A stretch of DNA of 64,000 nt from NCBI GenBank assembly GCA_018401355.1, contig JAGYLD010000002.1, positions 1 through 64,000 of the forward strand, given 5' to 3'. The translations under genes and the position numbers were made by a program. Positions 12,369 to 14,642 of this stretch are shown here, piece after piece. This stretch comes from Bacteroidales bacterium. Lineage in GTDB: Bacteria > Bacteroidota > Bacteroidia > Bacteroidales > B18-G4. Numbering within the stretch: position 1 is the stretch's first letter; each line of letters opens with the position of its first letter. Under the pieces are notes generated by a model. The model was not told where the DNA came from. It saw only the letters and a program-made list of their open reading frames with translations, and did not search any database.

Positions 12369-13553
12369 TCAACCCACCTTTTTCATTCTTTTTACAGGAA
12401 TAGTTCTGTCAAACATATACCGGTATGTATGGTGGACTTTATATATTTTACCACCGATCTGTTCAACATTTTTGATCATGGTCGGGTTGAAATCGCCAAT
12501 CCAGTTCATTTCCAAATCTGTATATGGAAAGCCTGGTTTCTGGACTTCATTTTCAAAGGCCATAATCAGTCCGGCTTCCACCCCTTTTCCATGAAACCTT
12601 GGAATTACCCCGAAAATCCTTCCGATGACCCGGGTGATCTTTTTTCCAAATTTTAACAGGAGTATAAAACGAAGCTTGTTCAACAAGTGGAATTTGCCGT
12701 TGAATTTCTTGAAGATCATTGAAATATCAGGTATCATGATGAAGAAGGCAATGGGTTCTTCTTTGTGGTAGCCAAAGTAAACCAACCTTTGATCGACAAT
12801 GGGTTTTATTTGTTTCATCAGGGCCATTGCCTGTGCCTTTCTCATTTTTGTCACCCCGGGAAAACGTCCCCAGGCCTGGTTATATATTTCCAGGAAGTCG
12901 ATGGCATATTTTTCAGGTTTTCTCTTATCGATCATTTCAAAAGAGTATTCAGGATTGCTGTGCACTCTTTTGCCTTTTTCAATCACGATGTCACTAATTC
13001 CTTTGCGTTCAAGTTTTTTATGGTATGTGAGTTGCCTGAAAAACAGTTCAAAACCGTAGTTTTCAAAAAGATCCTGATAATAAGGGAAATTATATGGCAT
13101 ATTGTATAAAGGCTCGGTAAAGCCTTCAACAAGGCAGCCCCAGAAGCTATCCCGTTCTCCAAAGTTTATGGGTCCATCCATGGCTTCCATACCTTTTGAT
13201 TTTAACCAATCCCTGCTTGCATCAAACAGCATATTGGCAGCATCCTGGTTGTTGATGCAATCAAAGAATCCCATTCCGCCAGTTGGTTGGTCATGTTTTC
13301 CAGACCTGTCATCAAGAAAAGCAGCCACCTTGCCAATGGTATTTCCATGTTTGTCAACCATAATCCAGCGAATGGCTTCTCCCTTTCTAAACTTTCTATT
13401 CTTCTTTGGATCGAAGATGGCTTCAATGTCCTGGTTCAGTGGCCTTGACCAATTTTTATCGTGGCTATAGAGTTTGGTGGGAAAGTCCAGGAATTCCTTT
13501 TTTGATTTCTTGTCTTTTACTTCAATGAGTTTGAAGGGTTTGTTGTAATCCAT
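12369..13553 (-). CDS. GNAT-fold-like conserved protein
   Basis: GPINFGERDSFWGCLVEGF... sequence resembling the Bacteroidota GNAT-like hypothetical family. Confidence 0.55.
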   Translation of the reverse strand: MDYNKPFKLIEVKDKKSKKEFLDFPTKLYSHDKNWSRPLNQDIEAIFDPKKNRKFRKGEAIRWIMVDKHGNTIGKVAAFLDDRSGKHDQPTGGMGFFDCINNQDAANMLFDASRDWLKSKGMEAMDGPINFGERDSFWGCLVEGFTEPLYNMPYNFPYYQDLFENYGFELFFRQLTYHKKLERKGISDIVIEKGKRVHSNPEYSFEMIDKRKPEKYAIDFLEIYNQAWGRFPGVTKMRKAQAMALMKQIKPIVDQRLVYFGYHKEEPIAFFIMIPDISMIFKKFNGKFHLLNKLRFILLLKFGKKITRVIGRIFGVIPRFHGKGVEAGLIMAFENEVQKPGFPYTDLEMNWIGDFNPTMIKNVEQIGGKIYKVHHTYRYMFDRTIPVKRMKKVG

Positions 13554-13724
13554 GAATAAAAGATTTCAGTAAATATATAAAACTCATGGAACATTTATAC
13601 CACAAAAATCAATTTTCAGATTCATGATCATATATAATTATGATATTCATCAGGATACTGTAATTTGTCCGGATTAAAGAGTATTTTTGCCTTTTAGCAG
13701 GGTTTTATTCCTTTTAATTCTAAT

Positions 13725-14378
13725 ATGAGGAGATCAAAAATATATCTGGGGGATCAGGATTTTGAAATGCATCCTTCCAAGACATTATTCTGGAAGAATG
13801 AAAAAACACTTATAATTTCTGATCTAAAAACCGAGGTAAACGGAAAAAACGGTATATGGTCTGATGTAAAGAGAAAAGCCATAGAAAGCAATTTTCAACA
13901 GCTTTATGATCTTGTTCATTTTTATGAACCTGAAAGCATTTATTTCATTGGAAATCTTTTTAAGGTCGAAGATCAATACGAGTGGGTAAGGATGAATATT
14001 CTCATGGAGCGTTTTCGAAATATCGAATATCATCTCATAAACGATGATGAGCCAGGTAAAATGATGATGGGATCTTTTAATAAAATCAGGATCAATGAAT
14101 TGATCGTTAAGGGAAACATTGTCATATCGCATAAACCCTTGACAGAGCTGAATGGCAGTATTAATATCTGTGGTTATATAAATCCGTGTTTTCGTTATAA
14201 AAGGCGAAGGCTCACTTCTGCAAGATGTTCCTGTTTTGTATTTTCCCATAATCATTTTTTCCTTCCTTCTTTCAATAAGTCACCTGCAATGAATTATTTT
14301 GAACCCGGAAATGATCAAAGAATATATTGCATAAAAGGAAATAAAATCAAAAGCATAAAAAACAACCACTCATTTTGA
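13725..14378 (+). CDS. PdeM-like metallophosphoesterase-fold protein with degenerate metal-binding motifs
   Basis: Aligns by eye with PdeM-type proteins (KTLIISDLK, SIYFIGNLF, NDDEP, ISHKPL, NICGYINP, LLPSF-like) but ligand residues are substituted. Confidence 0.6.
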   Translation: MRRSKIYLGDQDFEMHPSKTLFWKNEKTLIISDLKTEVNGKNGIWSDVKRKAIESNFQQLYDLVHFYEPESIYFIGNLFKVEDQYEWVRMNILMERFRNIEYHLINDDEPGKMMMGSFNKIRINELIVKGNIVISHKPLTELNGSINICGYINPCFRYKRRRLTSARCSCFVFSHNHFFLPSFNKSPAMNYFEPGNDQRIYCIKGNKIKSIKNNHSF

Positions 14379-14429: not shown

Positions 14430-14642
14430 ATGACAGGTATTGCAAAGCTTGTATCCTGGATTGCCGGAACTGTGGGAGGCATACTGATTTTTGCCGGGAT
14501 CATCGGCTTTTTTATTGATGGGAATTTTCTTGGAGTTGCAAATTACTTTAATTGGTTCTATTTTGCCAATAGTTTTCTATTGCTGGCAATATGCAGCCAG
14601 CTGTTTGTAATGTCTGCAAATCTTAAGAACAGGAATAGTTAA
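14430..14642 (+). CDS. Small membrane protein (70 aa)
   Basis: Two hydrophobic segments; fits between flanking genes. Confidence 0.5.
   Translation: MTGIAKLVSWIAGTVGGILIFAGIIGFFIDGNFLGVANYFNWFYFANSFLLLAICSQLFVMSANLKNRNS

Follow-up and report, generated by a model that had tools for sequence, protein, structure and literature searches.

Introduction

PdeM/MPE cuts single strands as a Mn-dependent endonuclease and belongs to the exo-ligase-Lhr-PdeM repair module. Beyond this family, two phosphoesterase-related cases serve as precedents for the loss of activity. The B-subunits of eukaryotic B-family DNA polymerases, which are related to archaeal PolD DP1, carry a calcineurin-like phosphoesterase fold that has lost all catalytic residues and is kept as a non-catalytic subunit (PMC4996933). 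Similarly, Bxb1 gp47 is a phosphoesterase-family protein reported to be without phosphoesterase activity that serves in DNA transactions as a recombination directionality factor (stated in PMC12287305). For the PdeM family itself, we found no report in open-access papers of a dead phosphoesterase fold kept as a binding subunit.

Here we describe an open reading frame in a 64,000-nucleotide stretch of DNA from a Bacteroidales bacterium (the window; genome G000), for which an initial annotation had proposed a PdeM-like fold with its metal ligands replaced and a selected, non-catalytic role.

Results

A full-length PdeM/MPE homologue scoring below the family cut-off

The frame starts with ATG and is intact over 217 codons, in agreement with the initial annotation (Table 1). 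Residues 8-208 of its product match positions 3-205 of the 207-position NCBIfam profile TIGR04123 (E 3.8e-23, 82 bits), a full-length match to PdeM/MPE, and the orthologue from the congener G001 matches the same model with an E of 6.4e-25 (87.8 bits), both scores falling short of the curated equivalog cut-off of 150 bits. A Pfam search with the window protein returned zero matches, and phmmer against PDB sequences found P. putida MPE (6nvo/6nvp) as the sole near full-length relative (E 0.0013). The product is a true PdeM/MPE homologue, with a similarity well above chance. A 143-aa antisense ORF (13824-14255, minus strand) lies wholly within the gene and is probably a chance frame.

Table 1. 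Coordinates of the PdeM-like gene, its motifs and the adjacent features in the window.
Feature	Position	Strand	Basis or remark
PdeM/MPE-family protein, probably catalytically degenerate, 217 aa	13725..14378	+	TIGR04123, AF2 model, G001 orthologue
Motif I, D33-L-K35 (canonical D-L/V-H)	13821..13829	+	Asp kept, His to Lys; following loop one residue shorter; same in G001
Motif II, G76-N77 (canonical G-D)	13950..13955	+	Bridging Asp to Asn; Glu in G001
Motif III, N106-D107-D108 (canonical G-N-H-D)	14040..14048	+	Asn kept, catalytic His to Asp; two residues deleted upstream, also in G001
Motif IV, His136, kept	14130..14132	+	Alignment to intact PdeMs
Motif V, G150-Y-I-N-P154 (canonical G-H-x-H-P)	14172..14186	+	Both His replaced; GYTNP in G001, independently GYVNP in G1034
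394-aa gene, divergently transcribed	12369..13553	-	ORF, synteny; beside the PdeM-like gene in G001 too
Divergent intergenic region, 171 bp	13554..13724	.	One TAnnTTTG (Bacteroidota -7-like) 35 nt upstream of the ATG

The PdeM-like fold proposed from the sequence agrees with structure prediction. Aligned with three intact PdeMs from public genomes, the window protein yielded an AlphaFold2 model with a pLDDT of 83 and a pTM of 0.85; with the alignment rows withheld, pLDDT fell to 37 and the model was useless, and the fold assignment thus rests on homology together with the aligned model. In a Foldseek search of this model the best PDB matches were P. putida MPE 6nvp (E 9e-14) and 6nvo (E 4e-13), with TM scores of 0.76-0.84, and the next-ranked fold was Mre11 at E 1e-3, ten orders of magnitude weaker, Mre11/SbcD being the nearest folds other than MPE. 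The predicted fold is therefore that of MPE. W23, L29, G76, G150, P154, C170, F171, L180, P181 and F183, all fold residues, are kept both in the window protein and in G001, and the motifs are spaced as in PdeM, with two loop deletions present.

Most of the catalytic residues are replaced

High- and low-scoring PdeMs from Bacteroidota genomes were collected and aligned, and 51 intact PdeMs served as the comparison set. Eight positions are invariant in all 51 (D33, H35, D77, N106, H107, H136, H151 and H153 in window numbering), which fall on Asp and His of DxH, Asp of GD, Asn and His of GNHD, a His further along, and the two His of GHxHP. Across the superfamily these residues are the ligands of two metals, with the His of GNHD acting as proton donor. 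The window protein has replaced five of them (H35K, D77N, H107D at the catalytic His, H151Y and H153N) and retains the motif I Asp (D33), the motif III Asn (N106), whose assignment is alignment-dependent and follows a two-residue deletion, and the motif IV His (H136). The initial annotation had read ISDLK, FIGNLF, NDDEP and GYINP correctly; its wording that nearly every ligand is substituted slightly overstates a loss that spares three of eight. The HFR and FTG motifs conserved in intact PdeMs are also both lost, with V38, N39 and G40 now at the HFR positions; the loss of the HFR loop suggests that any contact with nucleic acid may have changed.

Taken residue by residue, the alignment indicates that the two-metal centre has been lost together with the catalytic His, and we infer that the protein is catalytically inactive, while D33, N106 and H136 could together still hold one metal. 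Inspection at the sequence level gave no sign of ligands supplied from elsewhere. With pI values of 9.3 for the window protein and 9.0 for the G001 orthologue, against a median of 7.0 for canonical PdeMs, both proteins are basic, which is compatible with nucleic-acid binding and faintly hints at it.

Among 198 relatives, a homologue of the window protein was found in one other genome, that of G001 (E 4e-40, 33% identity, intact ORF), where the acyl-CoA synthetase-like gene, the 394-aa gene and the PdeM-like gene follow each other in the identical order. The G001 protein has K35, E77, N106, D107, H136, Y151 and N153, four of its replacements being identical to those in the window, and both loop shortenings are common to the two proteins. 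Given these shared replacements and shortened loops, the loss of the residues most likely predates the split between the two species.

A rare gene separated from its usual partners

TIGR04123 matches in 2 of the 198 genomes of the order, neither over the cut-off; in a sample of 395 genomes from across the class, 114 exceed that cut-off. With a two-row profile, G000 and G001 were the only matches among 393 sampled genomes of the order (2/393), the other 391 having none. The neighbouring genes are present in a third congener that has no PdeM-like gene, and likewise in a sister genus; the PdeM-like gene is absent from the sister genera. A scan of genome contigs with the single protein found zero relatives, and one with the two-row profile found three intact PdeMs only.

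Intact PdeMs in exo-ligase-Lhr-PdeM clusters were seen in Neptunitalea and in G1000. Within the window the gene has no ligase, Lhr-type helicase or exonuclease neighbour, and thus none of the cluster characteristic of PdeM/MPE, which bears out the earlier remark that it is not beside a ligase or helicase gene. Genome-wide, no match to TIGR04120/04121/04122 exceeds its cut-off in G000 (an 83% complete bin) or G001 (95%), the helicase and exonuclease models giving only weak, partial matches to generic relatives below cut-off, and the same searches recovered ligase and exonuclease in PdeM-positive controls.

Independent loss of the active site in other lineages

The partnerless state has a counterpart elsewhere in the phylum. 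In G1000, a full exo-ligase-Lhr-PdeM cluster lies between a 487-aa gene and ahcY (L103:3283-9100), and in G1034, a member of the same genus, which belongs to another class than the window genome, a PdeM-like ORF stands alone between the same flanks (L102:9314-9997), with exo, ligase and Lhr gone and zero ligase over cut-off in the genome. The G1034 protein retains D33 and has N35, D77, N106, L107, H136, Y151 and N153, with the motifs ENLD and GYVNP, and in the PdeM tree it groups with its live congener's protein at full support. This grouping and the shared locus led us to reject a common origin for the dead forms as a whole, and PdeM death, as read from tree and locus, appears to have occurred independently at least once more besides the window clade. 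A remnant in G446 (L079:2226-2930) is changed at all eight positions, with one in-frame TAG and GYQDP for GHxHP, and that genome has no module ligase.

The module ligase is absent from all four genomes with dead forms (G000, G001, G1034 and G446) and is carried by the live relatives G231 and G1000, the G1000 protein being full length at 372 bits, just below the curated 400. It seems that PdeM dies when its partners go and that the shell is sometimes kept. Around the window clade the PdeM tree has a weak backbone and long branches, and the gene there may have been either gained horizontally or retained as an old copy. In G574, a second, partial PdeM copy (L080:3592-3906, minus strand) lies ~1 kb from a full intact one.

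The window clade and G1034 have lost the same four positions (H35, H107, H151 and H153) and have Y151 and N153 in common; crude chance estimates, post hoc and suggestive only, are 0.07 for the set of lost positions and 0.02 for the two shared residues. A tentative and rather doubtful extension is that PdeM recurrently becomes a pseudoenzyme of defined type once the module is lost, with these four residues gone, D33, N106 and H136 kept and GHxHP converted to GYxNP in at least two independent lineages. The altered pocket would then recognize one particular ligand, such as a nucleotide or a DNA end, and the protein would act as a sensor or binding subunit. An altered yet active enzyme, in which D33, N106 and H136 would combine with K35, D107, Y151 and N153 into a one-metal or metal-free site for a new substrate, is unlikely. 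The three ligands are indeed retained in both lineages, and the Y151/N153 pair arose independently in each, as if a defined pocket were maintained, yet the first-metal side is reduced to D33 and the catalytic His is gone. Moreover, a maintained site should vary less than this one does between the window protein and G001, where the bridging Asp has become Asn in one and Glu in the other and position 108, adjoining the catalytic His site, is D in one and S in the other.

The gene is under purifying selection

Identity between the window gene and its G001 orthologue is 0.55/0.61/0.33 at the three codon positions, and a codon model rejected omega = 1 for this pair (2dlnL 61 for the gene, 39 for the gap-free codons 1-107). 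As dS is saturated between the two genes, omega is known only as well below 1, with an upper bound near 0.1-0.2 by profile likelihood. Identity between the two genomes is 33% for the PdeM-like protein against 72%, 72% and 43% for three neighbours, a fast evolution which implies that constraint is modest. The PdeM-like gene in both species is under purifying selection and appears not to be decaying.

A slow pseudogene, that is, a functionless relic whose frame has stayed intact by chance in two genomes, would fit the fast evolution of the protein and the missing gene in the third congener and sister genera, and the independent dead copy in G446 does carry a stop codon. This explanation is nevertheless quite improbable: the frames are intact in two species at 33% identity, the codon-position bias is strong, omega = 1 is rejected even with dS saturated, and fold residues were retained while active-site residues were lost. 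A 217-codon frame also seldom survives 0.2-0.3 neutral events per site, simulation leaving it intact in 9 of 2000 neutral runs with 0.2 events per site and in 3 of 2000 with 0.3. The comparison with an orthologue and the dN/dS estimate that the initial annotation had called for therefore disfavour pseudogenisation, and a selected non-catalytic role rather than decay is the best reading, supported by the replacements shared with G001 and by the rejection of omega = 1.

Genes neighbouring the PdeM-like frame

Pfam and NCBIfam gave zero matches for the divergent 394-aa neighbour, and its identification by eye as a GNAT acetyltransferase was dropped on that account. The protein is widespread in the order, where a distant second paralogue often accompanies it, and it occurs in relatives without the PdeM-like gene, which argues against an obligate pair. 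The corresponding intergenic region in G001 measures 92 bp and also has one TAnnTTTG, both promoter-like sites being too weak to use. Downstream, a 70-aa membrane-like ORF (14430-14642, plus strand) without a family match is 51% identical over 49 residues to an ORF at the corresponding place in the sister genus G003.

Discussion

We consider it probable, at roughly 0.7, that the gene descends from PdeM/MPE as an orphan that has lost catalysis, and that selection has kept the protein shell for a non-cutting, binding role. Its retention in two related species without the usual partners suggests a second, non-cutting job of the protein shell. In the sequence of events that we envisage, the ligase, helicase and exonuclease partners would have been lost, or never acquired together with the PdeM-like gene; DNA cutting by PdeM without them would have been useless or harmful; the metal centre would then have been lost; and the folded shell would have been retained since it still bound something. 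By analogy with the phosphoesterase fold of the polymerase B-subunits, the likeliest role would be that of a non-cutting binding subunit for a nucleic acid or protein partner. That the protein instead antagonizes a different repair nuclease (SbcD/Mre11, for instance) by sitting on DNA ends that it does not cut is highly improbable. Mre11/SbcD are the nearest other folds, and such a role would suit a dead nuclease whose DNA-binding face had been retained, but the HFR loop of intact PdeMs is lost and DNA contact may have changed with it.

An orphan, apparently non-cutting PdeM becomes more noteworthy because the pattern recurs in a second lineage. G1034 and G1000 form a before-and-after pair within one genus, with the module and a live PdeM in one and no module and a dead PdeM in the other, making it testable whether partner loss drives the transition from enzyme to scaffold and also whether a non-cutting function belonged to PdeM from the start.

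Compared with PdeM/MPE (TIGR04123; P. putida MPE, 6nvo and 6nvp), the window protein is alike in length, full-length homology, predicted fold, motif spacing, D33/N106/H136 and fold residues, and differs in the five of eight replaced residues, two loop deletions, the loss of FTG and HFR, a score of 82 bits where the cut-off is 150, and the absence of the partner genes. Bxb1 gp47 provides a precedent as a phosphoesterase-family protein reported to lack the activity, but it is a phage protein from another branch of the superfamily, and its relative A10ZJ24 Gp48 is reported to be an active nuclease. The polymerase B-subunits are not specific homologues of the window protein, and they differ from it by an OB domain and by the polymerase known to be their partner; they nonetheless provide the precedent of an inactive phosphoesterase fold that has been kept.
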